Source: Alphaproteobacteria bacterium
Lineage (GTDB): Bacteria > Pseudomonadota > Alphaproteobacteria > Rs-D84
Length of the DNA stretch: 45,784 nt
Reading direction: 5' to 3'
Assembly: GCA_017935245.1 (NCBI GenBank)
Contig: JAGBHZ010000008.1
Location: 1-45,784 of the forward strand
The position numbers and the translations under genes are program-made. Position 1 is the stretch's first letter. Each line of letters begins with the position of its first letter. This document shows positions 7,422 to 39,071 of the stretch, piece by piece. Below the pieces are notes generated by a model. It had not been told where the DNA came from. It did no database searches and was given only the letters and a program-made list of their open reading frames with translations.

Positions 7422-10400
7422 ATGGGAAAAATACGCAAATTCCTGGGATTTTTGACATTTTTTATTGGTATGATTTTCGCAGCAAATTCATTTGCCACGG
7501 GGTATGTGTGCGACGATATAAAGATGTACACATCGTGTAATTCGGGGTATTACCTGTCGGCTTGTGGGACGGAATACGACGGACGCGAATTAAGTGAAGA
7601 CGATTTAACCACGGGGAATTCGTGTATGGAATGCCCAAGTGATGATTATACATGTGCCGGTGGACTAACGTGCCCAAGTCTGAAAACGGTTACAATTTCG
7701 TTTAGTTGTGGTGATGGTGAATTGAAGCCTGGGGTAACATTGCCAAAAATTACAGCAAAGCTTGGCGAAGAAGTGAGCCTGGAAGGATACAATCCGGCGG
7801 AGTATTGCCACAGGAATGGATATTATGCAGATACGAATGCTTTTGTGAGTGCTATTATATGGACGGATAAGGATACTGGTATAATTGTTGGCAATATGAA
7901 CTATACTATTACCGCCACATCGGACATGGAATTTTTGCCAGAGTGGAAACCAAACGACTTAGCTCTTAGTTTCTATAGGGGCGATCGCATCATTAGTCGC
8001 GATTATATAAACACCGATGATTATGTGTGCAGTTATGGTGAAAAATATACCATACCATCATATGAACAGGCCGGCTATGACTTTAATGGCGAATGGACAT
8101 CCGAAAATACAAGCAAAATATTCAAACCCGGCGATGTTGTGGATTGTACATATGAAACATTTGGCAGTTATGGCTTTTATAGTCTGAACGAAGCAAATAA
8201 TTTTGACTATAAATCGAACGACGGAGAAATAACCAGTGAAATTCCAACATCAGATAAACTTATAACAGAAAGTTTGCCCATTACATATCTGGTACGGTTT
8301 AATGCCGATGGTGGTTCGGGCACAATGGACGACCAAGAATTGGAGTATGGGGAGTATAGTAATTCAACTGAACTTAATGCGAATAAATTTACCCGTACCG
8401 GATACACGTTTATGGGTTGGTCAACCACCGAAACCGGATCGGTCGAATATACCGACGGGGAGTGGGTATCCAACCTGACCACAGAAGATGGTGCGGTGAT
8501 CAACCTGTATGCGGTTTGGGAACCGGCCTGTAATAAACTTCAGATGGCAAAGAAGTGGTTAGCCACGGGTGATCCGCAATTTTTGGAAGCATGGAATACA
8601 CGCGATTATTTGTATTTCAAAACAGACGATAACACAGTTTATACCGATTCGGCATGCACAACCGAGTATTCTTCCGCTGATTACAGCGACGTTATTCCAA
8701 CCGTTAAGCCTTCATCGGGGCTAAAGTTTATGGGTTGGGCGGTTTCTGCCAATACTGATATCAATTACGTATCGGCATTGCCAATTCACAGTTCTACGTA
8801 TGTTGAGTATATGTTGCTGGATGAAGATGGGGAAATCTTTGGCGGGGACCCATTAACGGGATTTAATCCTATACCAAAGTATCTATATGCCGTTTTTGCG
8901 TCTGATTGTGTTACAGACTCGCCCAAGGGAACCTGTAATCAGACCATAACAAAATCAACCGATACATCAACACTACGTGTTCAGTACGATGTTGAATGTG
9001 CCAATGGATATAATAAAGAAGATGTGGATTTGCTTGGTACGCTTGCAGAAAGTGATTTGAGTGTGTGTATAGGAAATGAATACACGGTTTCATTTAATGC
9101 CAATGGTGGTTCGGGCGGGCAATCGTCGTCTGTAACCGCAACGTATGGCAGCGAAATGCCAGAAATTAGCACAACCGCCCCAACCCGCACCGGATATACA
9201 TTTATGGGTTGGTATGATAATGCGGACTATAATGCGGGCAAAATGTACTATACCGTGGCAGGTGAATCAGCGCGTAATTATGACAATACTTCCAACACAA
9301 CGCTGTATGCCGGATGGGCCCCATGTACATATTCGGTAAAGTATAATGCCAATGACGGCAGCGGCACAATGAGCGACAGTTCACACACGTACGACATATC
9401 CAAGAATTTGTCCGCAAACACGTTCACACGCACCGGATATAATTTCTTGGGATGGTCAACGGACAATTCGGCAACATATACCAACGAAGAAGCGGTTATA
9501 AACCTGACCGCAACATGTGGTGGAACGGTTAACCTGTACGCGGTGTGGGATCCGATTACATTTACCATTGAATATCTTGGTGGGGATGGTGCAACGGGTT
9601 CGATGGACTATCAAACATGTACATATGACACGGATTGCTTTGTGGCCAACAATGAATTTGAAAAAACAAATTATAACTTTACAGAATGGGAATGTTCGGG
9701 GGGGGCATGCGATGGTGATATGGTTCAACCTGACGACAACCTAACGAATGCAACAGCCACCGATGGTGCGGTGATTACATTGACCGCGCAATGGTCGCTG
9801 GGGGTATCTACATGTACCGCGGGTCAGACATATGATGAACAAACATGTCCGGAGGGTTCATATTGCCCGGGCGAAAACGTTCCCGCTGGCACAGAATCCG
9901 GCGACAATGGTTGTGCACGCAAATGTCCTGTGGATATCCTGCGCGGTGGAACGGTGTCATCTGGCGAGGGAAGCGATAGTAGATCTGACTGCTATACCAC
10001 ACGTGAAAATACCGCCACACCAAATGGAACCGGTCGTGGTGACCAGGTGTGCGAATATGGCGTTAACGCAGCGAAAACCGATAACTATGCGGGTGACTGT
10101 ACGGTCGTAATTAATTGGTGCCAGGGGGGGATGTACCTGCAGGCAAATGATGATTCAGAATGTAAAACAACATCACCGGGTGAATACAGTCCCGAGGGCG
10201 ATACAAAAAAATATTTTTGTAATGATTTGAAGGGTGCAAACGATACAACTTCGTCCCAGGCGGGTGCCAAATCAGCAACCGAATGCTTTAACAGATGTTC
10301 GGCAAATGCAATCACCAATGGTGTACAAAACCCAATTGATTATGTTGTGGAGTATAACGGCACGGAATTCCCGGCGTGCAAATATGAAACGTCGTGTAAC

Positions 10401-13400
10401 GGGGGGTATGTTGTTGATGGCGATGCGTGTCAGCCAGATGTGTTTAAAATCACACTGAATCACAATGGTGGCGTGCCAAGTGTAAATACCATCTACTTAA
10501 AATATAATACCGGATGGTATTCAGATGAGACGGCAAACACACCGATAACATCAATTCCGTTGCCAACGGATGAAACCAAGACATGCAGTGGTTATTACTA
10601 TAATAATACCCAGATGATTGTTGGGGCCGATGGCAAACTAACAACCGATTATAAGGTGTTTGATGATGATGCGGAAATCGTCGCATCATGGGATGCAAAA
10701 CCAACAACGACATGTGCGGCGGGTACGTACTATACGGGAACCGGTACAACATGCGCCACATGTATCGAGGGCAATTATTGCCCCGGCGTTCAGAACGTTA
10801 TCCAGGGCTCTGGCCAGGCGGGTATGTTCACATGCGCATCATTAAAAGGTTCGTATGTTCCGGCGACCGATGCATCGGGCAATGTAATGACCGTTGAAAT
10901 TAATTCGGCGGCCGGTGCAGATAGCGCGTCTGACTGTTTCGCAACAAATGTTGAATATAAAACAACATATGCGACCGGTGCCCAGAAGTGTTACTATAAT
11001 TCTGGGGCGTACAATGACAAATGCACAGACAAATCGGTGTTCACATGTATTGCGGGATATTATTATGACGCTGAAAAGAATAGCACAGACTGTATCATCG
11101 TTGGCCGGGGGTATTACAGTCCAAAAGATTCCAAGACGCGTGGTATGTGCCCTGGATTTGGTACAGATTCAGAAGTTACCACGGATGATGAAGATTCTGA
11201 CAGTATCACGTTATGTAAACGTGGCAACACCGCAAAAAAAATTGTTCATGGTTATATGCGTGCCAGATGTACACACAAATCAGATGCGCCATCTGATTTG
11301 ACCGACGTGTCTGGGTATCAAGACAACTGTCCACTGGGGGTTGTTGTAACCTGTGATGCGGGGTATTATGATGATAAAACATACCAAGGCACAGAAAAAA
11401 CACCGTACTGTGTTCAGGTTGAAGCCGATTATTGGAGCCCAGATCAAGCAACATGTTCGGGCAGTGATGATATTCCAATGGCGGAAAATCCTGGATGCTC
11501 AACCCTGAAAACAGCGTGCGCGGCGGGTTCAACCACCAATGGCGTAACCGGCGCAACCAGTGCCGAAGCGTGCAAATGGACAACGTGTGAACCGGGTATG
11601 GTATGTGAAGACGGTAAAGAACCACAAAGTTGTTCCAAATTAACAGGCGGTGAATTTACACTGTCCGAAGCCGGCACAACCAGCGTTGATAGATGTTTTA
11701 AAACATGTGAAACTGAGTGCGTTGAACCAGATAGTTGTCCGACGAATTTCAGAAGATGTGAGTATAAAACTGGAGCTATGATTTCTGGTATTCAATACTA
11801 TGGGACGAATGAATGCACAACACAGGATCCGTACTGTTCTATCAAACATGGTTCTCAAACTTACTGTGAATCACCGTATTACTTGTCTGAAGAACATCCG
11901 GACTGTTCTGCAAGTTGTTCGTCTTTGGAACCAGAGAGATTTTATAATTCTTCTTCAAGCCCTACATTACAAAGAGCAGAAACGGCATGTAAAGCTTGGT
12001 GCGACCCCTCATCAGAAGACGCTTCAGGGCGTAAATATTGTGATTTCTCTGCCGCTTATGTATTTGACATAAATGGAAATTTAACTGATGAAACAAAGAA
12101 CTGGTGTCCTGAGCATGCGACATGTACGGATTATATTCCGCCAACTACTGGTTATGCTTGGTATCCAGCTGGTGTATGCGTTCCTACTTCTTTGTGTAAG
12201 TTTACTTTTGTGTGCGATCCAGGTTATGTTGCTAATACGGAAAGCGCGGTTGCGTATGGTCAAGCCAAAAGTTCGTCTGGGGGTGTCTCAAGTTCATCTG
12301 ACATTGCAACGTGTACACCGGGGACGTATATGGTTACATTGGATGACAATGGTGGTAATGGTGGCGCTGGGGCAGTCTATCAAAAATATACTGTTGGGTG
12401 GTCGTTGACGGATTTTGGTGATCTGGTTGACAGGGTTAGTGTTCCGACGCGCGATGGATATACGTTCAAGGGGTATTATGACGCTAAAACCGATGGCAAT
12501 TTGGTAATTGGTACAGATGGTATGTTGCCTGCGAATGATAAGTTCACAGATGATACGACACTGTACGCGCAATGGGATCTTATTACATATACTATTACAT
12601 ATGACAATATGGACGGTGCGACGAATAATATTGCCAACCCATCGTCATATACCATTGAACAGACACCAATGTCATTGGCAAATCCAGAAAAGAGAGGATA
12701 TACATTTACGGGATGGACCGGCGATGCGATATCCGACAATACAATTGTGGAGGGAACGACGGGAAATCTGACCATTACGGCAAATTGGAAGGCGAACACA
12801 TTCGTGGTTCATTTTGATACAACCGATGCGACCGAGACGGTTGTTCCAAATGTTGAATGTACGTATGATGAACCATGTAATGCGGCCGCTGCAATTGAGT
12901 TGCTATACAATACATTTAGTGGATGGAATACCGCGCCTGATGGTAAGGGTACAACGTATGATGGTGGTGCAGATATCACAAATATCGTAGCCAGTGGTGA
13001 AATTACGCTGTACGCGATTTGGAACCAGAACAAGGTTGCTTGCCATGCGGGCAAATATTATGAAAGTGGCGTGGAAAAAACGTGTCCAAAGGGCCAATAC
13101 TGTCCAGGCAACGGTCAAATCAACGAAGGGTCCACTGGGTGTATTGAAGAGTGTCCGGATGATGGCGCAACAACCAGAGTCAAGGATGGTGGTGCGTCGA
13201 ATATCGCACAATGTCGCAAGGTAGTTTCAGGTAGTGAAGCCAAGCAGACATTTACACACGGTACCGCACGGTGGGATTGTGCGTACAATATTGAGACGGG
13301 CGAATACACACTCGACTGCGATGCCGTACCATTGACATGCGATGCAGGATTTTATTATGAATTTGAAAAGCAAAATTACGGATGTACAACGGTGGAAAAT

Positions 13401-16400
13401 GGGTATTATAGCCCTGTCCCAGTGGTTCCAGACGGCGAAAAAGATGAAGCCAGTATGGAACGCTATGCATGTCCGGGCAAGCTATATGATGATGGCACAA
13501 CATCAAATGGAATTGGTTCGGTAGGTTTGCGCGCGTCGATTACAGATTGTACCAGTGTTTGTGCACTGACGATCGCGGATGTTTTGAACAGTAAAACCGT
13601 GACGGCAGATTCTGAAAAGGTTAAAAGTGACGCAAATGGCGTATATCCGGCGTGTTCATACACAATTGTGTGTCATGATGGATATACCGAACAAGACGGT
13701 ACGGATCCAGAATGTATTGCAAAGGAATATACAATTACATTGGATACAAACGGTGGAGTTGGAGATGTTGATGCGTCAATAAAATGCACGTTTGGCAGTG
13801 GCAAGTGTGCGTTGCCGTCAACGAATACATTGACACGTGCCGGTTATGTAACCGCAAACCAGTGGTGTGAATATTCCGATGGCAGTGGTGAATGCTATAC
13901 CGCCGGTGAAAACACAGTTGAAAACATTTCCGACAAGGGCGATGATACAACACTGTATGCGATTTGGAATCCGGGCGTATTCAAGGTTGAATTGGTGGCG
14001 GATGACGCAACCGAAAACGAAAACAAAAATCCAGTATATTTGAAATATACAGTTGGTTGGTATTCGGATAGCGGGGCAGAAAACAAACTGACATCGATTG
14101 AGGGGGGACTGCCCGGCAAATCAGGTTATATTTTCGCGGGGTATAAATTAGGCGACGTTATGATTGTTGATGCAAGTGGCAAACCGATATCTACAGATGC
14201 AGCGCTGCGGGCGACAACATCCGATGCGGTGGCAAATGTAACATGGGCCAATGGTAGCACAACGTGTGAAGCGGGATATTATTACCCCGGTAATGGTGGT
14301 GCCGAAAATTGTAAAGTGTGTGAAGCCAATCACTGGTGCCCAGGTGATACATTTGGAACAGACACCGGCAATATTGGCGGACATAACGAATGTCCGGATG
14401 GTGGATTGTCCGCGGGTGGCGTAACGGCAACAAATGCGGGTGTATGCTATAAAGAAGGCTTACCATACACATCCATCACAAAGCGTGCCACGGGTACACA
14501 GACATGTTATTATGACGATACAGACGGTAAAAAAGTATACGACGCACGGTGTGAAGACAAAGTTGTTAATACATGTATTGGTGGTTACTATCGTGCTAAT
14601 GACACAGATGAAGATTGTACCGAAGTGGGGGAAAATTATTACAGCCCAGATACATCTATAAAACGTATTGCGTGTCCAGACAATGGTATCACAGGCGAAA
14701 AAACCACCGCAACGGAAGCTGGCGAATGTTACAAGACCGTGCCATATACGGCAACAAATGGTTCGGGCACAATGGTCTGTAACTATACAAAACAGAACGA
14801 TGACGGCAGTGCACTGTATAACACTGATCCCCGTGATTGGTTTATAAACAAATGTAATCCAGGATATTATCGCGTTGCAGAAACCGACAAGGATTGTGTG
14901 GAGATTGAACGGAACTTCTATGGCCCGGTTAACGAAGTATACAAAGAACCATGCCCAATGGATGAAGTATCTGGCAAACGCGGTGTAACAAACACTACGA
15001 GAGCGCCGAGTGCTGGTTTTTGTTATGTTGAAGAGCAAAAGTTCGAATCAGAACATGGTGATGGTGTACAACGTTGCGACTATAACCAAGAGGACAGAGT
15101 GTATGACATGTGCGGTAAACGTAAATTCCACCACTGTGATCCGGGATATTATTGGGACAGAAAAATCGAAAATGACTGTGTACCGGTTGATTATAGACAT
15201 TTTGGTCCAGTTGCGGATGAAAGCAATCCAGGATACTATACGGCGCGTCAGGAATGTCCAACATTTGATGGACGCGAAGGACAGACAGAAGACGAATACA
15301 GTGCAGATGCATCGGAATGCTATATGACCGAGGTTCCATGTGGAAACGCCAGCACCGGTACAGGTACACGGACATGTAATTATGATGAGAGTGCACAGTC
15401 TTATTCTGATACATGTACAACAACATGTGAGATTGATGGATGTCCATCGGGACACTATCTGGACAGTGCAAGCAATGCATGTATTGAATGTCCGGCCGGT
15501 ATGATTTGTGGCCCAGAAACAGGCGTCGAAGGTGGCGAAGATCCAAAGGCCTGTAAAGACATGTTTGATGGACGTTATCCAAACTCGGATGCGGGTTCAT
15601 CCAGCACAGGTCAATGCTATGGTACATGCGATATCGCAACAAACGCATCAACCATGATGGGACGCGATTATCAAAATGACGCCTTAGACACATGTGAAGT
15701 TAAAACATGTTTGCCAGGTTATGATTTAGAAAATGGTAAGTGCGTAAAATGTGACGAGGGTAAATATTGCCCAGGCGACGCAGATGGCGATGGTGAAAAC
15801 GATGGCGAAGCCCAGTCATGTCCGACATCACATCCGAATTCAGATGCGGGTAATACAGACATGGGCGAATGCTATGCGGCGTGTGCAAAATCACCAAATG
15901 CATCGACCATGACGGGACGTGATTACTATACCGCCAAGGATACATGTGCAATCAATACATGTTTGCCGGGATATAGACTGAACGGTGGTACATGTACCAA
16001 GTGTGGTGATGGCGAAGTATGTCCGGGCGACGCAGATGGTGATGGTGAAAACGATGGCGAAGCCCAGTCATGTCCGACATCACACCCGAATTCAGATGCG
16101 GGTAATACAGACATGGGTAAATGCTATACGGCGTGTGCAAAATCGCCAAATGCATCAACCATGATGGGACGCGATTATCAAAATGACGCCTTAGACACAT
16201 GTGAAGTGAAAACATGTTTGCCAGGATATAGACTGAATGGTGGTAAGTGTACCAAGTGTGGTGATGGTGAAGTATGCCCAGGTGACGCGGATGGCGATGG
16301 TGAAAATGATGGTGATGTTACATCATGCCCGACATCACATCCCCATTCAGATAATGGAATCAGTGATATTAACATGTGCTATACAGATTGTACGAAGTTA

Positions 16401-17471: not shown

Positions 17472-17478
17472 TAAAAAG

Positions 17479-17503
17479 TCCCGCCAATTGGTGGGATTTT
17501 TTT
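17479..17503 (+). terminator. Intrinsic terminator of giant gene 1
   Basis: The stem TCCCGCC/GGTGGGA with AATT loop is followed by seven T, 8 bases after the stop codon. Confidence 0.8.
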
Positions 17504-17580
17504 CAATGGGTTAAAATAGTATAAAAACGTTTTTCAAAAAACTTAATTTAAAAATTATTGTATGATTTTAACATTTCTCC

Positions 17581-17610
17581 TTGCACGACATATCGTATTT
17601 TTACTACCAT
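17581..17610 (+). promoter_or_regulatory. Shared-type promoter of giant gene 2
   Basis: TTGCAC at 17581-17586, an 18-bp spacer and TACCAT at 17605-17610. The run from here to the ATG is almost the same as before giant gene 1, down to AAAAGAGAGGAAGAAATG. Confidence 0.6.
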
Positions 17611-17632
17611 AAGATACAAAAGAGAGGAAGAA

Positions 17633-20600
17633 ATGGGAAAAATGCGCAAATTCCTGGGTTTTTTGACATTTTTTATTGGTATGATTTTTGCAGCAAATTC
17701 GTTTGCCGCCGGATATGTTTGTGATGATCTTATGAAATACATGTCGTGCAACGTTGGATATTACCTGTCGGATTGCAGGGCACCGTACGACGGACACACA
17801 TTAAGTGAAGACGATTTAACCACGGGAAATTCGTGTTTGCCATGTTCAGCTTTGGGGAATGATTATTCTTGTGCAGGTGGGAACGCGTGCCCGGTATCCG
17901 CATCCGGAAATATTACATGTGATTCAGGATTGTATATACTTGGTACTGAATGTACTACCTGCGACAGGGGGTATTATTGCCCAGGTGGATCGTTTGAGCC
18001 AAATGGTAGTGAGCAGGGACACTATAAGTGCCCCGACTCGCATCCAAACAGTGATCGCAATACTACTGCCATAGATTATTGTTATAAACAATGTGAATCA
18101 CAAACGGGATATGATTATTACAATGCGAAAGATACGTGTTCTAATAACACAGGTTCATATGTTTGTGATGATCTTATAAAATACATATCATGTAATTCTG
18201 GATATTACCTGTCGGATTGCGGAACAACATACGACGGACGCGAATTAAATGAAAATGATTTAACCACGGGGAATTCATGTTTGCCATGTTCAAACGCAGG
18301 CAGTGGCTCTGTGTGTAACGGTGAGCTAAAATGTCCACAAGACGATAGCATCGATTGTACTGCAGGAGAATATTTAAACGGTGCCACATGTGAATCATGT
18401 GAACCAGGTTATTATTGTCCAGGTGGTGCGTGGACACCAAACGGTGGTAAACAGGGTATGGAGCCTTGTCCGTTATCCCATCCCAACAGCAGTGATGGTG
18501 AAGAAGATATAAATTATTGTTACACATTATGTCCAGAGCTGAATGGATATACCCTGACCGATGGATATGATTATTATGAGGTGGACGACACGTGTGATTA
18601 TACCGCGAACACATACACAGTATCGTTTAATGCCAATGGTGGCTTCGGAGGACAATCAACATCTGTAACAGCGACGTTTGACAAAGCAATGCCAGCAATT
18701 AGCACAACCGCCCCAACCCGCACCGGATATACATTTATGGGTTGGTATGATAATGCGGACTATAATGCGGGTGAAAAGTACTATACCGCGGCGGGGGAAT
18801 CGGCACGCAAGTGGGATAAAACAGAAGAGACAACACTGTATGCAGGATGGAAGGCTGGTTGTTTCGCAATAACATTGGATTCAAACGGTGGCACTGGTGG
18901 TGAAAATGTGCCCGGTGTCTTATATAAAAAATATGATGAAAACGCCATATACAGCGATTCATCGTGTACAACAGAATACACAGAGGATTCTGTATTGTTA
19001 AATGTAACACGTGATGGATATCAATTTGCTGGGTGGTCTGGTTCCGATAATAAAAACGATATTACAGCCGATAAAACCGTGAATCCAATTTGGTGGTCAG
19101 GAAGCACCGTATTGTTGGGTGCATCGACTATTAACGCCGAAATGACAATATATGCGGTTTGGGCCAAAGAGTGTACAACCCCCCAAAATGGCACATGTAG
19201 TCTGAACATTAATCACAGTGCCATAAATACTGCTACAGTTACGTATGATGCAGAATGTGAAGAAGGATACACATTAACTGACGATGGTACCGCACAGCCA
19301 TCGTGTACGAACACGGAAAAATATTATACGATATCTTATATACTTGATGGTGGAACGATAAATGAAGAATATACTAAAAAATGTAATGAAAAATCGAATG
19401 TAATCACACTGCCAACAGACGTTACCCGCGAGGGACATACATTTGATGGATGGTACGATAGTGATGATAATCGTGTTACAGAAATCGCCGCAGGAACATG
19501 TAATGCAAACCTATCATTCACTGCAAAATGGCAAGAAATTGTTTCTGAAGAATCTGTCGTTATCAATTTTGATTTTTCACAGACTGCAGATGGTGCAAAA
19601 GTTGGTAATGGTGAATTACCACAGCAAATTGAATGTATAAAAGAGCAAACATGTTCTTTGCCACAAATTGAAAATGTACAATTGTACCGCGACGGTTATA
19701 CTTTTGTTGGGTGGTGCAATGAAAAAATTGCTGATTTCAAAGGAACAGACTATATCGAATATCTTGACAAGGGGGTATTTGATGCAGACACAACATTGTA
19801 CCCAGTGTGGCAAAAAAACACGGAGATAGATTCATATGATATACTGCTTGATAAAAATGGTGGTGAATTTAAAGATACATGGGACATAAATCAATGTAAT
19901 GTGAATTCAGATACAATCATACTGCCAACAGATATGATCCGCATTGGATACGTTTTTGATGGCTGGTACAGAAATGATGAACGCGTTTCAACAATTGATG
20001 CTGGGACCTGCACTGCTTCAATGTCGTTTGTTGCCCAATGGACGCCATGCAATTATACGGTTGCATTTAGTGCAAATGGCGGTAACGGCAGCATGGATTC
20101 CACAACACATACATATGATGAATCGCAATCGTTGACACCAAATAAATTTACACGTGATGGGTACACGTTTGTGGGATGGAATACCCTGACCAATGGAACA
20201 GGTGTTTCGTATTCAAATGGCGCAAGTGTTAAAAACTTGACCAGCACATGCAGTGGAACGGTAACCCTGTATGCAATGTGGAGACCAGAAGAATATTCGA
20301 TTACATACGCCCTTAGTGGTGGAACGAATTACAGTGGCGCACCGGTGGCGTATGATATTACAACACCAACAATAACACTGGGGACACCAACACGCGCAAA
20401 CAGTGTGTTCGAAGGTTGGTACACCGATGCCGCATTCACAACAAAAATTACAGAAATCGCTATGGGTTCAACCGGTGATAAAACACTGTATGCGAAATGG
20501 TCGTGTAATAATGGCTATCATGCGGATAATAATACGTGTGTTGGTAATGTAATTAAATTGGTGTGGAATAATGGTGGGGTTGGCGTTGCACCAACATCCC

Positions 20601-23002
20601 CGGCCAGTTGTACATACGGGCAATCAGTTACAATGCCGGCGGCAATTGTTGCAGATGGTTATGTATTTAATAATTGGACCGTGAATAACAATTCGTTTAA
20701 TGCAATGGAATCTGTGATTTGCAACAGTGGTAATTTGGGTGTTACAAGTGGAACGGCAACAATTGTGGCCATGTGGGGGCGTAATCAATATACCGTTACG
20801 TATTCATGTGGAAGCGGTACTGGAACACCCCCTGAAAAAGCGGTGGCAAAATATAACCAGAACTTTGCCGTTGCAAACAATACTTGTTCACGTGATGGAT
20901 ACACATTTAGTGGATGGGGCGTTAGCGAAACAAATGATATAAAAACAGCCAATACAACATTTAATTGGTCATATGTAAGCGATAAAACACTGACCGCCCA
21001 ATGGACGCCATGCGAATATACGGTTGCATTTAATGCAAATGGCGGTAATGGCAACATGGATTCCACAACACATACATATGATAAATCGCAATCGTTGACG
21101 CCCAATAAATTTACACGTGATGGGTACACGTTTGTGGGATGGAATACCATGGCCGATGGAACAGGTGTTTCGTATTCAAATGGCGTAAGTGTTAAAAACT
21201 TGACCAGCACATGCAGTGGAACGGTAACCCTGTATGCGGTTTGGGCACGGGGACAATACAAAATTAATTATGAATTATATGGTGGAACGAATTACAGCGG
21301 TGCCCCAATGGCCTATGATATTACAACACCAACAATAACACTGGGGACACCAACACGCGCAAACAGTGTGTTCGAAGGATGGTACACCAATACATCTTTT
21401 GTAACAAAAATTACAGAAATTGCTATGGGTTCAACCGGTGATAAAACACTGTATGCGAAATGGTCGTGTATGCCGGGATACAATATGAATTCGTCTGGCA
21501 CGGGATGTAATCGTGCAGATCCAAGTATTATAAATATTGTATGGCAAAATGGCGGGCATGGCTTAACATATATACCATCATCCACTTGCCTGTATGGCGG
21601 GCAAATATTTATGCCGATTGAACCATATGCGCCGGGATATACGTTTGTTGGATGGTCTGTTAATGGTCAAATATTTGACCAGAACCAAAAATTACCATGC
21701 GACATGGATACGTTTGGTGTTAAAGATGGACGCGTAGTTGCCACGGCATTATGGCGACCAGAAACATATACAATATCATACAACATGGATGGTGGCATTA
21801 ATCCGACGTCAAATCCAGAAACATATACAACAGAAACACCAACAATTACACTGACTAACCCAACCAAAGATGGATATGTGTTCAAATATTGGACCAATTC
21901 CGTTGGGAAAGTTATCGATAAAATAGAATCTGGATCCGTTGGTGATGTTGCATTGAAAGCCAATTGGGCAATTGGTACGTATAAAATTACATATAAATTA
22001 AATGGTGGGGTGAACAATACATCTAATCCAGATGCATATGTGTTTAACAAGACACCAATTGTGTTAAAACAACCGAAACGCGTTGGATATACATTTGATA
22101 AATGGGTTGGCAATTATGTGGTAGATAACACAATAATAAACAGTGCCGCTGGTGATCTGGAAATTGTTGCAACATGGAAACCGAATATATACACAATTAA
22201 CCTGAATAAAAATAACGGTTATGGAAACGTTGTATCATCGGTCAAGTGTACGTATGATAGTGGTATATGCGAACTGCCGTCATTGGGTGCATTAAAACGC
22301 GATGGATATGTGTCAACAAACAAGTGGTGCGAAAAAGCAAATGGCACAGGCAAGTGTTATGATGCGGGCACAAATATCGACACCAACATATCAGAAACAG
22401 GAACAAATATAACACTGTATGCGGTTTGGGAACCAGATGTGTTCAAGGTTGAATTAATTGCCGTTGACACAGCGGTTAGCACACCCCAGACAGTGTACCT
22501 GAAATATGCAACCGGATGGTTCAAGGATAGTGCAGCAAGAACACCAATTGCATTGATTGATACAAATGCCCTGCCAGAAAGGCCAGGATATGAGTTTGCA
22601 GGCTATGAACATGATGGTGTCATGATTGTTGATGCCAATGGTGAATTACAACTAGATTCTGATAGCCTTGAATTTACAGTGTATGACACAGCTGCAACGG
22701 TAATCTGGGAAAAGTCTGAATTGAAGTGTGCCCCTGGGACCGAACCAGATGACAAAGAAGAATATTGCGTACCGTGTCAAAATAGATTTGATGCACTGGG
22801 CAATGTCGCCGTTAGCAGTTGGACAAAGGGATGTACAATTGCATCGTGTATGTACCATGGTGAATTGTACGACCTGTACGATAATGAATGCATTCAGGTT
22901 TGTCCATATGATACGTACACCGATGAAACCGGTACAATGGTATGGAACGATAAAACCAAAAAGTGTGAACGTAAATGCATAGAAGGTTTTGTTCGTTGGT
23001 AA
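17633..23002 (+). CDS. Giant secreted InlB-repeat protein 2 (1789 aa)
   Basis: Start at 17633 by the same leader and signal peptide as giant 1 (MGKMRKFLGF...ANSFAAGY, cleavage near residue 25). The Cys-rich head domain is present twice, at about residues 26-70 and 173-220. Then come about sixteen InlB B-type repeats (18607 to 22720), each near 65-85 residues with a GYTFVGW-type motif and a TLYAxW end. One two-repeat cassette is duplicated 963 bp apart. The C-terminal 79 residues match giant 1. Compared with giant 1 it is mostly InlB modules and has few Cys repeats. It is probably a surface or secreted beta-rich stalk protein; the ligand is unknown. Confidence 0.9.
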   Translation: MGKMRKFLGFLTFFIGMIFAANSFAAGYVCDDLMKYMSCNVGYYLSDCRAPYDGHTLSEDDLTTGNSCLPCSALGNDYSCAGGNACPVSASGNITCDSGLYILGTECTTCDRGYYCPGGSFEPNGSEQGHYKCPDSHPNSDRNTTAIDYCYKQCESQTGYDYYNAKDTCSNNTGSYVCDDLIKYISCNSGYYLSDCGTTYDGRELNENDLTTGNSCLPCSNAGSGSVCNGELKCPQDDSIDCTAGEYLNGATCESCEPGYYCPGGAWTPNGGKQGMEPCPLSHPNSSDGEEDINYCYTLCPELNGYTLTDGYDYYEVDDTCDYTANTYTVSFNANGGFGGQSTSVTATFDKAMPAISTTAPTRTGYTFMGWYDNADYNAGEKYYTAAGESARKWDKTEETTLYAGWKAGCFAITLDSNGGTGGENVPGVLYKKYDENAIYSDSSCTTEYTEDSVLLNVTRDGYQFAGWSGSDNKNDITADKTVNPIWWSGSTVLLGASTINAEMTIYAVWAKECTTPQNGTCSLNINHSAINTATVTYDAECEEGYTLTDDGTAQPSCTNTEKYYTISYILDGGTINEEYTKKCNEKSNVITLPTDVTREGHTFDGWYDSDDNRVTEIAAGTCNANLSFTAKWQEIVSEESVVINFDFSQTADGAKVGNGELPQQIECIKEQTCSLPQIENVQLYRDGYTFVGWCNEKIADFKGTDYIEYLDKGVFDADTTLYPVWQKNTEIDSYDILLDKNGGEFKDTWDINQCNVNSDTIILPTDMIRIGYVFDGWYRNDERVSTIDAGTCTASMSFVAQWTPCNYTVAFSANGGNGSMDSTTHTYDESQSLTPNKFTRDGYTFVGWNTLTNGTGVSYSNGASVKNLTSTCSGTVTLYAMWRPEEYSITYALSGGTNYSGAPVAYDITTPTITLGTPTRANSVFEGWYTDAAFTTKITEIAMGSTGDKTLYAKWSCNNGYHADNNTCVGNVIKLVWNNGGVGVAPTSPASCTYGQSVTMPAAIVADGYVFNNWTVNNNSFNAMESVICNSGNLGVTSGTATIVAMWGRNQYTVTYSCGSGTGTPPEKAVAKYNQNFAVANNTCSRDGYTFSGWGVSETNDIKTANTTFNWSYVSDKTLTAQWTPCEYTVAFNANGGNGNMDSTTHTYDKSQSLTPNKFTRDGYTFVGWNTMADGTGVSYSNGVSVKNLTSTCSGTVTLYAVWARGQYKINYELYGGTNYSGAPMAYDITTPTITLGTPTRANSVFEGWYTNTSFVTKITEIAMGSTGDKTLYAKWSCMPGYNMNSSGTGCNRADPSIINIVWQNGGHGLTYIPSSTCLYGGQIFMPIEPYAPGYTFVGWSVNGQIFDQNQKLPCDMDTFGVKDGRVVATALWRPETYTISYNMDGGINPTSNPETYTTETPTITLTNPTKDGYVFKYWTNSVGKVIDKIESGSVGDVALKANWAIGTYKITYKLNGGVNNTSNPDAYVFNKTPIVLKQPKRVGYTFDKWVGNYVVDNTIINSAAGDLEIVATWKPNIYTINLNKNNGYGNVVSSVKCTYDSGICELPSLGALKRDGYVSTNKWCEKANGTGKCYDAGTNIDTNISETGTNITLYAVWEPDVFKVELIAVDTAVSTPQTVYLKYATGWFKDSAARTPIALIDTNALPERPGYEFAGYEHDGVMIVDANGELQLDSDSLEFTVYDTAATVIWEKSELKCAPGTEPDDKEEYCVPCQNRFDALGNVAVSSWTKGCTIASCMYHGELYDLYDNECIQVCPYDTYTDETGTMVWNDKTKKCERKCIEGFVRW
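20039..21472 (+). repeat. Duplicated two-repeat InlB cassette in giant gene 2
   Basis: A cassette of two InlB repeats at about 20039-20514 recurs at about 21002-21472 (offset 963 bp). Long stretches are identical at the DNA level, for example those encoding SLTPNKFTRDGYTFVGWNT and TPTITLGTPTRANSVFEGW. One unrelated pair of repeats separates the copies. Confidence 0.85.
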
Positions 23003-23009
23003 TATAATT

Positions 23010-23029
23010 CCCCCGCAGATTGGCGGGGG
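23010..23029 (+). terminator. Hairpin terminator after giant gene 2
   Basis: CCCCCGC pairs with GCGGGGG around AGATTG. It is followed by an AT-rich stretch (ATATTTATAAAT) and not a clean T run, so it is a weaker terminator than its neighbours. Confidence 0.6.
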
Positions 23030-23075
23030 ATATTTATAAATGGATTTTTTATCTTAAATAATACAAAATGTTTGC

Positions 23076-24233
23076 ATGAATAAATACGACGTAATCATTA
23101 TTGGTGCAGGTGCCGCCGGATTAAGCGCCGCCACAACCGCAACAAATACAGGACATCGAGTGTTGGTGTTGGATATGGGGCCCCACCCCGCACGCAAGGT
23201 GGCGGTATCGGGTGGTGGCCGTTGTAATATTACAAATATGGCGGCGGATGCATCCCGATACTTTGGCGAAAATCCAAATTTTGTACGTGGCGCAATTGCG
23301 CGTGTATCGCCCGTGGATATTTTAAATTGGATGGATGCGCATGACCTGGCATACACAGAAAAAGCACCGGGACAGTATTTCTGTGCATCAAATGCAACGG
23401 ATGTCGTTAATGCATTAATCAAAGATGCATCAAGCGCAGATATAAAATACAATCACGTTGTTAAATCCGTAGAAAAACAGAATAATGAATTTGTCGTCGG
23501 CGCCAATGATACAACATATATTTCAAAATCATTAATTGTGGCATCGGGCGGCGTGTCTTGTGGTGTGCATGGCGTATCAGATATCGGGTATAAAATTGCC
23601 AAGTATTTTGGCCATAAAATTGTACCCGTGCGCCCCGCCCTGTGTGCGATGGCAATAGATACCCCGGCCCCAGAATTGATGGGCATATCAATCGATTGTG
23701 AAATTACCATTGGACGCGAAATAATTCATGACGCATTATTGTTCACACACTTTGGCATTGGGGGACCGGCCGTATATCGTGCCAGTGTGCGCGATATTTC
23801 AAATGGCCTGGTAATAAACATGTGTCCAGGTATCGATATTTATGAATTATTGCGGTTGGCGAAACATACAAATGGACGCCGCAGTATTAGTAACGTATTA
23901 TCAGAACATATACCAATGCGATTGGCGCGTTATTTTGGTGGTGGCGACATGCGAAATATTGCAGATATACGGGACGCAGAACTGAAAAACATTGCAGACA
24001 CCATAAACAGACTTAAAATTGCCGGCCGTGATATACGATTGCATAATTTGGCCAGTGCAGAAATTGTTCGCGGCGGCGTTTCAACAGATTTAATATCATC
24101 CAAAACAATGGAATCCAAAATTTGTCCAGGATTGTTCTTTGCCAGCGAAGTAATGGACGTTGCCGGTGATTTGGGGGGATTTAACCTGCACTGGGCATGG
24201 GCCAGCGGTCGGATTGCCGGAAATAATTCTTAA
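23076..24233 (+). CDS. HI0933/BaiN-family FAD-dependent oxidoreductase
   Basis: 385 residues, cytoplasmic. The N-terminus DVIIIGAGAAGLSAA is a dinucleotide-binding Rossmann motif (residues 5-19), followed by ARKVAVSGGGRCNITN, the signature of the HI0933-like (BaiN/RdsA) flavoproteins, FTHFGIGGP near residues 226-234, and a C-terminal FASEVMDVAGDLGGFNLHWAWASG that closes the FAD site. Length agrees with the family (about 390-410). The substrate is unknown for most members. It lies between giants 2 and 3 on the same strand, with its own ATG 73 bp after giant 2; no functional link is visible. Confidence 0.9.
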   Translation: MNKYDVIIIGAGAAGLSAATTATNTGHRVLVLDMGPHPARKVAVSGGGRCNITNMAADASRYFGENPNFVRGAIARVSPVDILNWMDAHDLAYTEKAPGQYFCASNATDVVNALIKDASSADIKYNHVVKSVEKQNNEFVVGANDTTYISKSLIVASGGVSCGVHGVSDIGYKIAKYFGHKIVPVRPALCAMAIDTPAPELMGISIDCEITIGREIIHDALLFTHFGIGGPAVYRASVRDISNGLVINMCPGIDIYELLRLAKHTNGRRSISNVLSEHIPMRLARYFGGGDMRNIADIRDAELKNIADTINRLKIAGRDIRLHNLASAEIVRGGVSTDLISSKTMESKICPGLFFASEVMDVAGDLGGFNLHWAWASGRIAGNNS

Positions 24234-24342
24234 AAGCAAAAATACATTCCCCAAAAATGGGTTTAAAAAATTACTTTTTTTAAAATTCAACTTTCAAAAA
24301 TCCTGTCAAAAAAAATTTTTTATTGATTTATGTTTTTTTTAC

Positions 24343-24372
24343 TTGTGCGGATATAGACTTTTTTTCTATGAT
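24343..24372 (+). promoter_or_regulatory. Shared-type promoter of giant gene 3
   Basis: TTGTGC at 24343-24348, an 18-bp spacer and TATGAT at 24367-24372. The spacer start (GGATATAGAC) and the upstream AT-rich block with TGTCAAA and TTATTGATTT parallel giant gene 1, so the three genes probably respond to the same factors. Confidence 0.55.
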
Positions 24373-24394
24373 TAAGACAAAAGAGAAAAAGAAA

Positions 24395-27300
24395 GTGGGA
24401 AGAATGTCTAGATTTCTGCGCGTTTTTGCGATAATTTTCGGGTTGTTTTTTGTTGGTAATGCGTTTGCCGCCGGGTACGTGTGTAATGATATCAAGCAGT
24501 ACTCGTCATGTAATACGGGGTATTACATGACATACAACGGTGTGGCAAACACCACCCCCCGTGTTGGAAACGCATGTACCGCGTGTCAATCGGGATGTAC
24601 GTGTGCAAACAATGTTATGACGTGTGAGATTGCTGTTACGTGTTCCAAGGGGTATTATATAGCAGCGGGTGCAACGACATGTTCTACACAATGTGAATCT
24701 GGATATTATTGTCCAGGTGGCACATATACTATTTCTGGCGCTGGCGCGACGTCTATTATGGGGCGGACGGGTTGTCCATCGGGTTATGGTTCGTCTGCGG
24801 CGGGGTCGAATGAAGACTATGATTGTTATTTGACCACAACCCCGGGTAAGTATATTGCGACCGCAAACAGCAGCACACAAAGCACGTGTGAAGCCGGTTA
24901 TTACTGTCCATCGGATACGGTGTACTATGGTTCAACCGGGACGCGCACATCGTGCGGCACCGGATATACATCGGCGGCGGGGTCGGATGAAGCGTCTGAT
25001 TGTTATGGAGCAAGTTACACTTGTTCTGCGGGGTATTATCTGAATGGAACATCGTGTAAAGAGTGTACTGCCGGATATTTTTGTCCGGGTGGTTCATTGA
25101 CATACAATGGCGGCATAAATGGACGCACCGCATGTTCAAGTGTGTCGTCTGCATATAGTAATTCTTTTGCTGGTGCAAAATCCCAGTACGACTGTTACAT
25201 GACATGTCGTGCGGGAACCCGGGTTGTTACAAAAGGAGCAACATCGTGTAATTTAACTTCGAATGGTGCATGGGCCACGGCGTCACATAATGTATTTTAT
25301 GGCCAGTTATCACCCACGTATTTTACCCCATATCCGGCGATCTTGAGTACACAAACATCAGCTACCGCACATAACATACATGCAAATATGTCGTTGGAAT
25401 CCCCAAATTATTTTACTGGATCACTGCCCGCAGGACGGAAAGTTAAGGGGCCAACGATAAACGCGTCCGCCATTCGAATTACAAACACGGGCACAAACGC
25501 TATTTACTTAAGTGAATTGGGTATATATTCAGAAGTCGCCGAGCTGGACACCGATGGACGGTTCAGGGGGATGTTCCATCCATACGATTCGCTTTTGCCG
25601 GGTATTATCACCGAATTTGAGACATCAGGAACTGTTAATGGTGCCCCCTATGCGGTGTTGGACAGCGAACTGGTTCCATATATTTCTTCGTATAGCTATT
25701 CTGGGACGATTTTGCAGGGCGGTTCATCTCTTACAGTATATTTCAATGCGGCAGAGTCTGTTGCCTTTGTTCAGGCTGCATTACAAAGCACATCTACCAG
25801 CCAGACCGCTACGCTTAATTTTGTAATCGAATTGTATGATGAGGATGCCGGCGAATGGATGACCATTTTTGCTCCTGCAAGTTATCCAACCAACCAGGCT
25901 TCATTAGCAAACAACGCACCAGGACTGAAAGCATATATGATGTCTGCATATGCACCGGTTTACTGTGATGCCGGAACGTATGCTGGAGGCCGCACTGTAG
26001 ATATGAACAATATTGAAGACGTCACGGGTTGTACATCGTGTTCAAGTGTTTCGTTTACCGATTCGGATTCAGAATCATGCACAATCGATAACGGTACAGG
26101 GGCCAGAACAAAATCGCGTACATGTTACCGTAATGACGGACCAGTTGGTGCAACGCTTTCAACCCAATGTACGGGTTCGTCCAACTGTGATTCATATACG
26201 TATGATACATGTATGGTTGAATCCTGTAATTCGGGATATGTTCCAAATGACGACAACACCGAATGTGTACCAAATATTGTATCATGCGGTTCGGGCGAAC
26301 AATTAAATGGCATTTCATGCGAACCATGTGCGGCGGGATATTACTGTACGGGTGGGGACTTTACACCAAATGGTGGCATCCAGGGACGCACCGCGTGCGC
26401 AACCGGTTCATACAGCAGCGAGGGTCAATCATCATGTACCATATGTACGGCCGGCACAACAACATCATCAACCGGTTCCAGCAGTTGTGATGTAACATGT
26501 CCTGGTGCCGATGGCGTATATGCGTGGAGTACCCCCAGTTGGTCAACAGATAACACGGTATCAAACGTGTGTGTCGCATCATCATGTAACAGTGGATATT
26601 ACAAAAACGATAACACATGTAATAGCTGTGCAGAAGATTATCCGGATTTCCCGTATTCCAACAATCGCACCACCGGTGGATATGGATATTGCTATCGTCA
26701 ATGTGATGTAAGCGACGTTGACAATTCAACCAGCGTTAGCGGTATTCAATACGCCGACGGTGTTGGTGGGGGATGCGAGCCAGAAAGTTGCGAGGGCGGC
26801 TACTATATAGATGGCGATTATTGTTCCAGTTGTCCATATTCGTACCCAGACAGTGATGGGGACAGTGGCGAAGCATACTGTTATGCAGCATGCCCATCCA
26901 AGACGGGATACACATTAGATGGTGGACGTGATTATTACGACACAGACGATACATGTTCATATATCCCAAACACATATACGGTATCGTTTGATGCCAATGG
27001 TGGTTCGGGCGGGCAATCGTCGTCTGTAACCGCAACGTATGACAGTGATATGCCATCAATCAGCACAACCGCCCCAACCCGCACCGGATACACGTTTATG
27101 GGTTGGTATGATAATGCAGACTATACCAATGGTACCCAGTACTATACCGCGGCAGGTACATCGGCACGCACATGGAACAAGACATCCAACACAACGTTGT
27201 ATGCCGGATGGGAAATTATTTCATACACAATCACTATTAGTAAAAACGGTGGTTCTGGTTCGTTGACGGTCAATGGCGTAACACAAACCGGTACACCAAA

Positions 27301-30300
27301 CGTGTCATTCACATGCAACCATGGTACAACATTTACGTTGCCGGCGTGGGGAAATGGGAATGCGTTGACGCGGACCAAAATGGTGTTCACAGGTTGGTCT
27401 GTATCCGGTACGGTTACATGTAATTCAACCAAGACTATCACGGCACAATGGGCAACACCAACATGTAACGCCGGCACGGGTGTTGCAACAACATCACTGA
27501 ATAGTGTCAGCAGTAACAAGCCCGTATGTAATCGCAGCAGTAAATGTGGATATTATTGTTCTGCGACACAGACGGGAACGGCGGGGGCAACATCATTGAA
27601 CACGACATGTACCAAGACAAGTGCGGGGTACTATGCCGCGGCCGGCGCAACCAGCCAGACACAAGCAGCCGCCGGGTACTATGCAGCGGCCGGCGCATGC
27701 GAACAGACCAAGATTAAAGCAGGATGCTATTCAACCGGCAATGGGTCCAGTGTCGAATGTCCAAATTCATGCCCGACGGTTGAAACCGGATGGACAATGA
27801 GCACCACAACCGGCCTGACCGCGATTACGCAGTGTACAGAAACAACAACACCATCAGCCAGTGGTAGCCCAATCGCAAGTGTTTGTTCCGCCGGTACATT
27901 GACCAAAACGGCAACCACATCCGGCACATGGGGCACCGCCACGGCCAGTGGCCTGAACGCAACGGCGGGATACTATGTAAATGGTACAACATGTTCGGCA
28001 TGCGGTGGCAGTAACTATTACTGTCCGGGGGGAACAACCGCGCGCAAGACGGTTAATACGGGTTATTACTCAACCGGTGGATCATCCACAACACGTACTG
28101 GCCAGACCAAGTGCGAAGCGGGTAACTATTGCAGCAGTGGTGTAATATATCCGTGTTCTGGAACAAACCAGTGGCAACCCGACGCCGGTCAGACATCGTG
28201 CGACACGGTAACAGATGGTATGTATAAATCTAATAACTATACATTACAAAACTGTGGTACGGGGTACTATTGTAAATCGGGTGTTCAAACCCAATGCCCA
28301 AATGGTGGGACAACGGCGTCCGCCACGGCCAGTGTGATTGGTTCGTGCTATAAGACGGGATTACCTTTGTCCGTCAGCAATGGTGCGGGAACACAACGTT
28401 GCTTCTATACCAGTGGCTTGGGGACCAGTGCCGTTTACGACAGCAGCTGTGATACCAAGACGGTTACATCATGTAATGCAAAATATTATCGTGCAAATGC
28501 GTCTGATTTAATATGTACAACGGTTGGTACGGGACATTATTCGGCGGCGGGTTCACTGACACGCAGCGCATGCCCAACCGCGGATTCCGGGTGGACGGTA
28601 ACATCACCGGCGGGTGCAACAGTCAGTGATTGCTATGAAACCAAAACCGGCAGCGCGATTAGTGCTTACTGTGATGGCGGGGTTCTGAAACGCGCGGCAT
28701 CCAGCACGTCGGCGTACAGTTCAACGGTTTCAATCGCAACAGCATTAAATGCAGTAACGGGCGCAATCGTCAACGGCCAAACATGTACCCAGTGCAGCGC
28801 CGGAACATACAGCGCTGGCGACAAGGCAACAACATGTTCATCAATATCGGCCGGTTGTTATGGCGGTGCGGGGTCTGGGACATCATGCCCGAACCAGTGC
28901 ACGGCCGGTACATATCGTTCATCCACGGGCGGAAAAACCCAATCAGATTGTTCAAACGTAACCGCGGGTTGTTATGGCGCGGCCGGCGCAACAGAATCAT
29001 GTCCGGCATACTGTGCGGCAAACACCTACTCTAACGCAGGGGCAAGCAGCTGTACGGCATGTCCAACAGACTATAAGAACAGTGGTAATTCTGCGGCGGC
29101 CCACGCGGGTAGCGCAAGCTGTATAATCACAGTAAATGGTGGTTACTATATCGGTACAGCCGGTGATAACAGCGGCAACTGGGATAAATGTGCAGGCGGT
29201 ACATATAAAGCACAACACACCGTAGCATATGGTTCAACGTCAAGCTGTACATCAGCATCCAAGGGGTACTATGTGGGCACAACGGGTGCAAGTAGCCAAA
29301 CAGCTTGTCCATTGGGGGCATACACTAATGCAACCGGACAAAACACATGTGTCCCATGCCAAAACGGTACAACAACGTCCGGTTCAGGCCAGACCAGCTG
29401 TAACGCAACATGTGAAAATAGCAACAATGTTACTTCATGGGCAACCGCATCAATGTCGAATAATAATGTTATAAATCTGTGTAAGGTAAGCGGGTGTAAT
29501 GAAGATACATATTATACCGCAATGATTGAAACCGGGTATCAAAACACATGTACTGCGTGTGGCGAACACTCAACAAATCCGGAAAACAACACTTTGCCGG
29601 TGTGCGCATGTGAGTTAGGACATACCAAAGACGCAACCGTTGGTGGCGCAACAACATCAATTACGGGATGTCAATTAATAACTGGGATTAAATGTAGTTC
29701 TGGTTACTATTTGCCAGCCCAGGCAACGGCGTGTGAACTGTGTGACCCAGGACATTATTGCCCAAATGACACCGACTATTCTTGGAGCACGAATATCCAA
29801 GGTCGCATTGAATGTGAGCCAGGTACATACCAGCCAAATAAGGGAAAGACGTCTTGTACCGAGGCAAGCGCTGGGTACTATGTATCAGGAACCGCACAAA
29901 CCGGCCAAACACTGTGTACCGGTGCAACATATGCGGAAAATACCGGCCAGGAGTCGTGTACATCGTGTCCATCATCAAAATTTTATCCGGGCTTAGAGTT
30001 AGATTATTACCTGGATGAAACGGGCATACATTCAAGTCGTGAGGGATGCAGTGCAGTCTTTAGAAACATATCGATAGACAACGGTGCATTATCGGAAGCG
30101 TTATGTTTCTTGGATACAAATGGAGACTATGGAACGGCAAATGCCCTAAGAGGTACATGGGGGTGCGAATCACGCCAGCAATATTTGACGTGTGATGGTG
30201 GATATTACACGCCAATAACAACCCCACAGTTTGCGTATCCAACACTTCAAGAGATGGTCGCCAATACATGTACGGGTGTTGGTTCGGGATACTGGTCAGC

Positions 30301-30568
30301 AGCAGATAGTTTGACACGCACGACATGTGGAACAGGACTGGTGACATGTGGTTCAGGTGCGTGCGCGAACGAAGAAGACGACTGTGGACGGAAATTACAC
30401 GCGGGCGATGATGTGGTTTATCTGCGTAGCGCAAAGCGTGGGACCAAGGCACTGAATGTCAAGGTGGGCGACAAGACGTTCTATGGCGCGTTGAGCACAT
30501 CACTGACGGGTGCGTTAAAGGTCAAAGATGGTACAACAACATATTCGGTTGTTAATGATTACCAATAA
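24395..30568 (+). CDS. Giant secreted Cys-rich protein 3 (2057 aa)
   Basis: The GTG at 24395 is chosen because VGRMSRFLRV lines up with MGKIRKFLGF of giants 1 and 2 and follows an AGAGAAAAAG purine leader at the same spacing; an ATG three codons on is the alternative. The signal peptide ends near residue 25 (GNAFA). After a short Cys-rich head come TNFR/ephrin-receptor-like Cys repeats. A cysteine-free insert of about 240 residues lies at roughly 285-523, and two InlB B-type repeats at about 860-1020. A very long Cys-repeat stalk with many CxxGYYxAxG units follows to about residue 1980. The C-terminus (HAGDDVVYLRSAKRGTKAL to VVNDYQ) differs from giants 1 and 2 and is cysteine-free. Function unknown; a cell-surface role is likely. 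Confidence 0.88.
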   Translation: MGRMSRFLRVFAIIFGLFFVGNAFAAGYVCNDIKQYSSCNTGYYMTYNGVANTTPRVGNACTACQSGCTCANNVMTCEIAVTCSKGYYIAAGATTCSTQCESGYYCPGGTYTISGAGATSIMGRTGCPSGYGSSAAGSNEDYDCYLTTTPGKYIATANSSTQSTCEAGYYCPSDTVYYGSTGTRTSCGTGYTSAAGSDEASDCYGASYTCSAGYYLNGTSCKECTAGYFCPGGSLTYNGGINGRTACSSVSSAYSNSFAGAKSQYDCYMTCRAGTRVVTKGATSCNLTSNGAWATASHNVFYGQLSPTYFTPYPAILSTQTSATAHNIHANMSLESPNYFTGSLPAGRKVKGPTINASAIRITNTGTNAIYLSELGIYSEVAELDTDGRFRGMFHPYDSLLPGIITEFETSGTVNGAPYAVLDSELVPYISSYSYSGTILQGGSSLTVYFNAAESVAFVQAALQSTSTSQTATLNFVIELYDEDAGEWMTIFAPASYPTNQASLANNAPGLKAYMMSAYAPVYCDAGTYAGGRTVDMNNIEDVTGCTSCSSVSFTDSDSESCTIDNGTGARTKSRTCYRNDGPVGATLSTQCTGSSNCDSYTYDTCMVESCNSGYVPNDDNTECVPNIVSCGSGEQLNGISCEPCAAGYYCTGGDFTPNGGIQGRTACATGSYSSEGQSSCTICTAGTTTSSTGSSSCDVTCPGADGVYAWSTPSWSTDNTVSNVCVASSCNSGYYKNDNTCNSCAEDYPDFPYSNNRTTGGYGYCYRQCDVSDVDNSTSVSGIQYADGVGGGCEPESCEGGYYIDGDYCSSCPYSYPDSDGDSGEAYCYAACPSKTGYTLDGGRDYYDTDDTCSYIPNTYTVSFDANGGSGGQSSSVTATYDSDMPSISTTAPTRTGYTFMGWYDNADYTNGTQYYTAAGTSARTWNKTSNTTLYAGWEIISYTITISKNGGSGSLTVNGVTQTGTPNVSFTCNHGTTFTLPAWGNGNALTRTKMVFTGWSVSGTVTCNSTKTITAQWATPTCNAGTGVATTSLNSVSSNKPVCNRSSKCGYYCSATQTGTAGATSLNTTCTKTSAGYYAAAGATSQTQAAAGYYAAAGACEQTKIKAGCYSTGNGSSVECPNSCPTVETGWTMSTTTGLTAITQCTETTTPSASGSPIASVCSAGTLTKTATTSGTWGTATASGLNATAGYYVNGTTCSACGGSNYYCPGGTTARKTVNTGYYSTGGSSTTRTGQTKCEAGNYCSSGVIYPCSGTNQWQPDAGQTSCDTVTDGMYKSNNYTLQNCGTGYYCKSGVQTQCPNGGTTASATASVIGSCYKTGLPLSVSNGAGTQRCFYTSGLGTSAVYDSSCDTKTVTSCNAKYYRANASDLICTTVGTGHYSAAGSLTRSACPTADSGWTVTSPAGATVSDCYETKTGSAISAYCDGGVLKRAASSTSAYSSTVSIATALNAVTGAIVNGQTCTQCSAGTYSAGDKATTCSSISAGCYGGAGSGTSCPNQCTAGTYRSSTGGKTQSDCSNVTAGCYGAAGATESCPAYCAANTYSNAGASSCTACPTDYKNSGNSAAAHAGSASCIITVNGGYYIGTAGDNSGNWDKCAGGTYKAQHTVAYGSTSSCTSASKGYYVGTTGASSQTACPLGAYTNATGQNTCVPCQNGTTTSGSGQTSCNATCENSNNVTSWATASMSNNNVINLCKVSGCNEDTYYTAMIETGYQNTCTACGEHSTNPENNTLPVCACELGHTKDATVGGATTSITGCQLITGIKCSSGYYLPAQATACELCDPGHYCPNDTDYSWSTNIQGRIECEPGTYQPNKGKTSCTEASAGYYVSGTAQTGQTLCTGATYAENTGQESCTSCPSSKFYPGLELDYYLDETGIHSSREGCSAVFRNISIDNGALSEALCFLDTNGDYGTANALRGTWGCESRQQYLTCDGGYYTPITTPQFAYPTLQEMVANTCTGVGSGYWSAADSLTRTTCGTGLVTCGSGACANEEDDCGRKLHAGDDVVYLRSAKRGTKALNVKVGDKTFYGALSTSLTGALKVKDGTTTYSVVNDYQ
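25245..25965 (+). other. Cysteine-free inserted domain in giant protein 3
   Basis: About 240 residues with no cysteine, flanked on both sides by Cys-rich repeats. It contains NASAIRITNTGTNAIYLSEL and a later region of regular alternating beta pattern (LNFVIELYDEDAGEWMTIF). The first half recalls discoidin-like or other carbohydrate-binding beta-sandwiches by pattern only. It is probably the ligand-binding head on a Cys-rich stalk; that is inference. Confidence 0.5.
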
Positions 30569-38423: not shown

Positions 38424-39071
38424 CTATTCCATGTTTTCAATTTCAAATACGCGGAACTTGAATATCGTAGATGGATCGCGTCCCGTTTCTAATTCATGGC
38501 CGATATTTATTTCTTTGCCACTGGTATCTTTCCAGAAGCCCGGTTCATAACGCATTTTAACCATCATTGTTCCACGCGTTATTATCGGGGCCAACGACAA
38601 ATCATTTGGCACGGTCCATGTGTGCAATTCATACGTTATTTGCCAACGATCCCCAATCTCGGGCAGATTAATTTCAATTACACGCGCCGTACGCATCATG
38701 CCCGCGGCGGCCATATCGCTGATTTCGGGGGCAATGGTGGCCTTCCACTGGGCAAATAATTCCGGCGATACCAACCGCGCTAATCCAGCGGTGCCACTAA
38801 TCCGGGTGTTAATGTTATTTACATCGGGAACAACATAAAAATATTCTGTGATAAATTTATCCACCAACATTTCACGTATTTTTTCATCACTTAAATCTTC
38901 GATACGGGCGGGAACGCCAATGCGTTGTGATGATAAATTGCCCGGCTGAAAGAAAAAAGAATCAATCGTTTGCTGGGATGCTGTGTCATATATGGCCGCA
39001 ACAACAACAATCATCCCCACCATCGCGGTCATTAAAACAAGCCCCAAAAGAAATGTAATCAATTTCTTCAT
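38424..39071 (-). CDS. VirB8-like inner-membrane protein, divergent second copy
   Basis: 215 residues: one N-terminal membrane helix (about 3-27), then a periplasmic domain. Elements such as KFITEYFYVVPD, ARVIEINLPEIGDRWQITYELHTW and DPSTIFKFRVFEIE fit the NTF2-like fold of VirB8/DotI-type secretion scaffold proteins, and the gene directly follows a better VirB8 match with a TAATG overlap. The assignment rests on layout and neighbour; an unrelated NTF2-like periplasmic domain remains possible. Confidence 0.6.
   Translation of the reverse strand: MKKLITFLLGLVLMTAMVGMIVVVAAIYDTASQQTIDSFFFQPGNLSSQRIGVPARIEDLSDEKIREMLVDKFITEYFYVVPDVNNINTRISGTAGLARLVSPELFAQWKATIAPEISDMAAAGMMRTARVIEINLPEIGDRWQITYELHTWTVPNDLSLAPIITRGTMMVKMRYEPGFWKDTSGKEINIGHELETGRDPSTIFKFRVFEIENME

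Follow-up and report, generated by a model that had tools for sequence, protein, structure and literature searches.

The window, a stretch of 45,784 nucleotides, contains three genes that probably encode a genus-specific family of giant modular, disulphide-stabilised surface or secreted adhesin-like proteins exported via Sec. All three are located on the forward strand. P1 (7422..17471, 3349 amino acids, ATG start) is composed of a signal peptide, a Cys-rich head, seven InlB-type repeats, Cys repeats (194 Cys) and a C-terminal tail of class A. P2 (17633..23002, 1789 amino acids, ATG start) harbors a signal peptide, a duplicated head, 15 InlB-type repeats, 70 Cys and tail A. P3 (24395..30568, 2057 amino acids) has a signal peptide, a head, Cys repeats (133 Cys), a single InlB-type repeat and a tail of class B; its GTG start agrees with the starts of aligned relatives. 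Together the genes occupy 21.6 kb, corresponding to 47% of the window's length and to 2.4% of the source genome (902,050 bp or 0.90 Mb, 92.5% complete). The first-pass annotation, which had described three giant reading frames filling half of the window in what looked like a small genome, was correct in both respects and in the positions given. An HI0933-type flavoprotein gene (23076-24233) lies between P2 and P3 and does not belong to the family.

Architecture and predicted promoter of P1-P3

The heads of P1-P3 can be aligned from the signal peptide through the Cys-rich segment with 27 invariant columns, in line with the earlier proposal of a paralogous family of secreted proteins sharing signal peptide and head. 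Each protein possesses a single hydrophobic N-terminal stretch and no further transmembrane-like segment. As judged from the sequence, the signal peptide comprises a basic n-region, a hydrophobic core and an A-x-A-type end, and it is kept in 30+ relatives. These N-terminal features bear out the Sec signal previously assigned to all three proteins, and P1-P3 are predicted to be Sec-exported. A lipobox, an LPXTG motif, a beta-barrel or a hydrophobic C-terminus was not detected in any of the three, which agrees with the initial observation that no anchor is visible.

The InlB-type repeats noted initially were identified by Pfam search as PF09479 (Flg_new), with seven stretches in P1 (E 8e-47, 157.7 bits), 15 in P2 (E 1e-113, 371.8 bits) and one in P3 (E 2e-13, 50.9 bits), all three proteins exceeding the gathering score of 27. 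Genome-wide, 21 matches to this domain were found, all of them inside the P1-P3 genes. The Cys-rich repeats are likewise real, but the ephrin-receptor/TNFR-like label attached to them was too strong. Within the window, PF07699 (Ephrin_rec_like/GCC2_GCC3) matches P3 only, at E 0.0075 and 16.5 bits compared to a cut-off of 23.1, whereas P1 and P2 gave no match; the Cys repeats of the window are therefore not formally assigned to this domain. A score above the cut-off was obtained only for one relative (L181, 67 bits for PF07699), which is located next to the secretin and matches both PF07699 and PF23091 (E 1e-18 and 8e-12). Another Cys-rich secreted ORF of 186 amino acids without Pfam match is located at 203-763 on the reverse strand of the window.

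Each of the three genes is preceded by a nearly identical predicted promoter that had been overlooked in the first-pass annotation. The element upstream of P1 (7369..7399, +) reads TTGCGC - 18 bp - TACCAT and is an exact match to the pattern CTTG-N14-TTTTTNCTANNAT, as are those of P2 (17580..17610, +) and P3 (24342..24372, +). It spans 31 bp and usually ends about 22 bp upstream of the start codon. The window contains exactly three exact matches, one per family gene, whereas 0.63 matches would be expected by chance even if two mismatches were allowed. Of 34 family genes, 31 are preceded by the pattern, or 33 once the starts of L058 and L076 are corrected, compared with none of 55 control ORFs; as the pattern was derived from the same genes, this control measures specificity and is not an independent discovery.

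Two conserved classes of C-terminal tails, also overlooked at first, can be recognized by profile and alignment. Tail A, with about 75 amino acids and the consensus ...CMYQGELYNLENNEC...DETG..W..C..C..GY..W, ends P1 (17214..17468, +; E 7.5e-41, supported by alignment) and P2 (22742..22999, +; E 2e-39), and its mean column identity is 64% across 15 sequences. Tail B, an LRS..VKVG..TFYG..YSVVND module, ends P3 (30341..30565, +; E 6.3e-44) with a mean column identity of 77% across five sequences. Proteins that share it are secreted, rich in Cys and between 200 and 3500 amino acids long, and in some relatives an extra tail (GCWCK...ANNMKG) follows a tail-B module. The idea that tail B is a strict C-terminal sorting signal was dropped, since in L170 it directly follows the signal peptide. 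The predicted structures of both tails are of low confidence (pLDDT 58 for tail A and 45 for tail B). Two small tail-B proteins (L173 and L174) harbor a TQYIDTG-type (LamG-like) stretch, which is another sign of mosaic secreted proteins.

Evolution and distribution of the family

The middle of the family proteins is a mosaic of InlB-type and Cys repeats, in which whole blocks are gained or lost between species while the codons are under purifying selection. Relatives range from 1397 to 4430 amino acids in length, and in-frame gaps between species reach 768 amino acids without any frame break. In 11 of 12 between-species pairs dN/dS values of 0.08-0.26 were obtained over the alignable parts; in the twelfth pair dS was saturated. 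Interruption of the reading frames, raised earlier as a possible objection to the three giant proteins, was not observed. The frames of the relatives contain no stops, dN/dS is well below 1, and the closed chromosome OX097180 carries an intact relative of 2279 codons in a slot formed by a PIF1-like helicase gene and an HI0933-type flavoprotein gene, two genes that often flank tail A genes. Cassette switching is without support, as searches with PF09479, head, tail A and tail B revealed no silent gene cassettes in the source genome.

P1 also contains a tandem Cys repeat (15640..16352, +) of 252 bp (84 amino acids) in 2.8 copies, a recent expansion. Together with the large variation in length, such repeats would fit an explanation by largely neutral or selfish expansion, with no specific role for the proteins. 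This explanation is highly improbable, because dN/dS is low over the alignable length, frames are intact everywhere, and the promoter and both ends of the proteins are strictly kept.

Of the 59 genus genomes subjected to profile search, 37 contained the head, 31 tail A and 53 tail B. None of the three was present in 40 outside genomes, comprising 18 of the same order and 22 other Alphaproteobacteria. A scan of 84,980 species genomes with the tail A pattern yielded 65 loci, whose titles refer to Alphaproteobacteria, Rickettsiales, an uncultured proteobacterium or Ca. Enterousia; the two exceptions are one Clostridia bin and one unnamed bacterium. Within the genomes searched, the family thus appears to be restricted to one genus, a feature that had escaped the first-pass annotation. 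This genus, which belongs to the order Rs-D84 of the Alphaproteobacteria, is probably Ca. Enterousia, since the tail A loci include Ca. Enterousia intestinigallinarum, avistercoris and excrementavium, and the genomes of the genus have tail A in common with these named records. According to titles and isolates, tail A carriers originate from ruminant, bird and termite gut, where the termite origin is our reading of some isolate codes.

Ca. Enterousia are reduced-genome, partner-dependent bacteria, and the lifestyle of the order has been inferred to be that of an obligate symbiont or parasite (PMC12306168). The same study lists hypothetical membrane-bound proteins possibly serving interaction with other cells, but the giant-protein family is not among them, and no published description of it was found in the literature consulted. 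Rs-D84 was found in flagellate-bearing as well as flagellate-free termites (PMC11257099), so that a flagellate is not the obligatory partner for the order. In gut-dwelling, uncultured bacteria thought to depend on other cells, the contact interface could well be formed by such giant secreted proteins, which make up a large, conserved and co-regulated set and are obvious candidates for it. A function in surface adhesion or partner contact is suggested by the architecture, the variability and this lifestyle. The heads, the tails and the promoter provide concrete targets for labelling and expression work.

Proposed localization and candidate export route

For adhesin-like proteins, the following course is proposed. 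Sec would export the chains, and a periplasmic DsbA-type oxidoreductase would form the disulphides. P1-P3 would then be located outside the cell, acting as long adhesins or as contact proteins, in which the variable middle would set reach and binding specificity while the tails would serve folding, anchoring or export recognition. Of the 59 genus genomes, 57 encode a DsbA-type protein, and neither DsbB nor VKOR was found in any of the 59. A Cys-rich secretome without a known DsbA partner constitutes a second, separate puzzle. The source genome (contig C18, around 9921-10064 on the reverse strand, in L055) and relatives (L074, L086-L092) also encode a distinct secreted protein that is conserved, has a length of about 780-960 amino acids and is seemingly present once per genome; the head model of the family matched it only beyond the signal peptide.

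The combination of a Sec signal without anchor or dedicated exporter, a very high Cys content and a conserved DsbA would also suit periplasmic or envelope-matrix proteins that form a disulphide-cross-linked scaffold, like the Cys-rich envelope proteins of Chlamydia, and are never displayed outside the cell. The presence of an autotransporter with chlamydial Pmp repeats in the source genome points in the same direction. However, a several-fold variation in length (1397 to 4430 amino acids) with a reshuffled middle is unusual for a scaffold, and P1-P3 contain InlB-type repeats, which are typical of exposed proteins. RodA, MreB and MrdA have moreover been reported in the lineage (PMC12306168), which also argues against this role. 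An envelope scaffold is hence considered rather unlikely.

As a route for the adhesin-like proteins across the outer membrane, a genus-conserved, secretin-based type IVB pilus/T2SS-like machine, not recognized in the first-pass annotation, could act as exporter. The source genome encodes TcpQ, a PilN-type secretin, PilO, PilP and GspE-like and GspF-like proteins. The secretin assignment (E 1e-69) has 235 bits, which is below the equivalog cut-off of 288. Of the 59 genus genomes, 56 possess a secretin, 54 T2SSF and 54 a prepilin peptidase; the source genome, 92.5% complete, gave no match for the peptidase. TolC occurs in all 59 genomes. The type IVB pilus/T2SS-like machine would be the most likely route, though a tentative one; no other machine found belongs to a class for which transport of proteins folded in the periplasm is known. 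At 39071-39763 on the reverse strand, the window also harbors a gene for a VirB8-like protein (PF04335, E 1.4e-8). The two genes after it encode small proteins that are either exported or located in a membrane, and this locus is a possible type IV secretion remnant.

In a more specific version of this export step, the type IVB pilus/type II-like machine would export P1-P3 and either release them or carry them on the pilus, as the toxin-coregulated pilus does with TcpF; the head or a tail would be the recognition signal. Pili of this class are able to secrete a Sec-exported protein (PMC9565799), and the core machine is conserved in the genus. The gene directly downstream of the secretin carries the head and/or tail B in 7 of 56 genomes. 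However, this slot is no commoner for family genes than other fixed slots (secA, PIF1/HI0933), and in the source genome no family gene is found next to the secretin. The adjacency, once regarded as a strong link, was for these reasons reduced to a lead. The machine is moreover found in genomes lacking tail A. Pilus-dependent release or carriage is therefore rated as possible, short of probable. The most elaborate form of the proposal is a speculative one. Here the disulphide-bonded giants would be co-regulated, use the fixed head and tails as export or anchoring signals, leave through a secretin machine of the type IVB pilus type and form a dedicated contact system, with which a gut bacterium dependent on partners would hold partner cells or feed on them.

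Comparison with known systems

P1-P3 have in common with the internalins of Listeria the InlB B-repeat (PF09479, TIGR02543; PDB 2Y5P), its presence in many copies and a secreted, modular organization. In contrast to internalins, they lack a leucine-rich repeat domain (Pfam search) as well as a GW module or LPXTG motif, and they belong to a Gram-negative host. NCBIfam internalin models reach 52 bits on the window proteins compared to a cut-off of 1600, and a PDB sequence search gave a weak match to InlB (E 0.1) and nothing informative for P3. With the ephrin-receptor-like/GCC2_GCC3 and TNFR-like repeats (PF07699, PF23091) they share short Cys-rich repeats of the CPxGYYCPGG kind, but the window proteins remain below the Pfam cut-off.

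The type IVB pilus-secreted proteins TcpF and CofJ (PMC9565799) resemble P1-P3 in being Sec-exported proteins encoded in a genome with a TcpQ/PilN/PilO/PilP-type machine. P1-P3 differ from them as giant repeat proteins that are encoded outside the pilus operon in the source genome. Autotransporters, including those of the chlamydial Pmp type, are likewise large surface proteins with many repeats in bacteria with small genomes, whereas P1-P3 lack the C-terminal beta-barrel of type V autotransporters (PF03797 or similar; Pfam search). A true autotransporter of 1085 amino acids with chlamydial Pmp repeats (PF02415, E 9e-25) and PF03797 (E 7e-31) is encoded elsewhere in the source genome (contig C18, L055:1687-4941), near a Cys-rich secreted ORF of 460 amino acids and clpX. 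Compared with these systems, the family is a variant of giant repeat-type surface proteins and does not form a new category.
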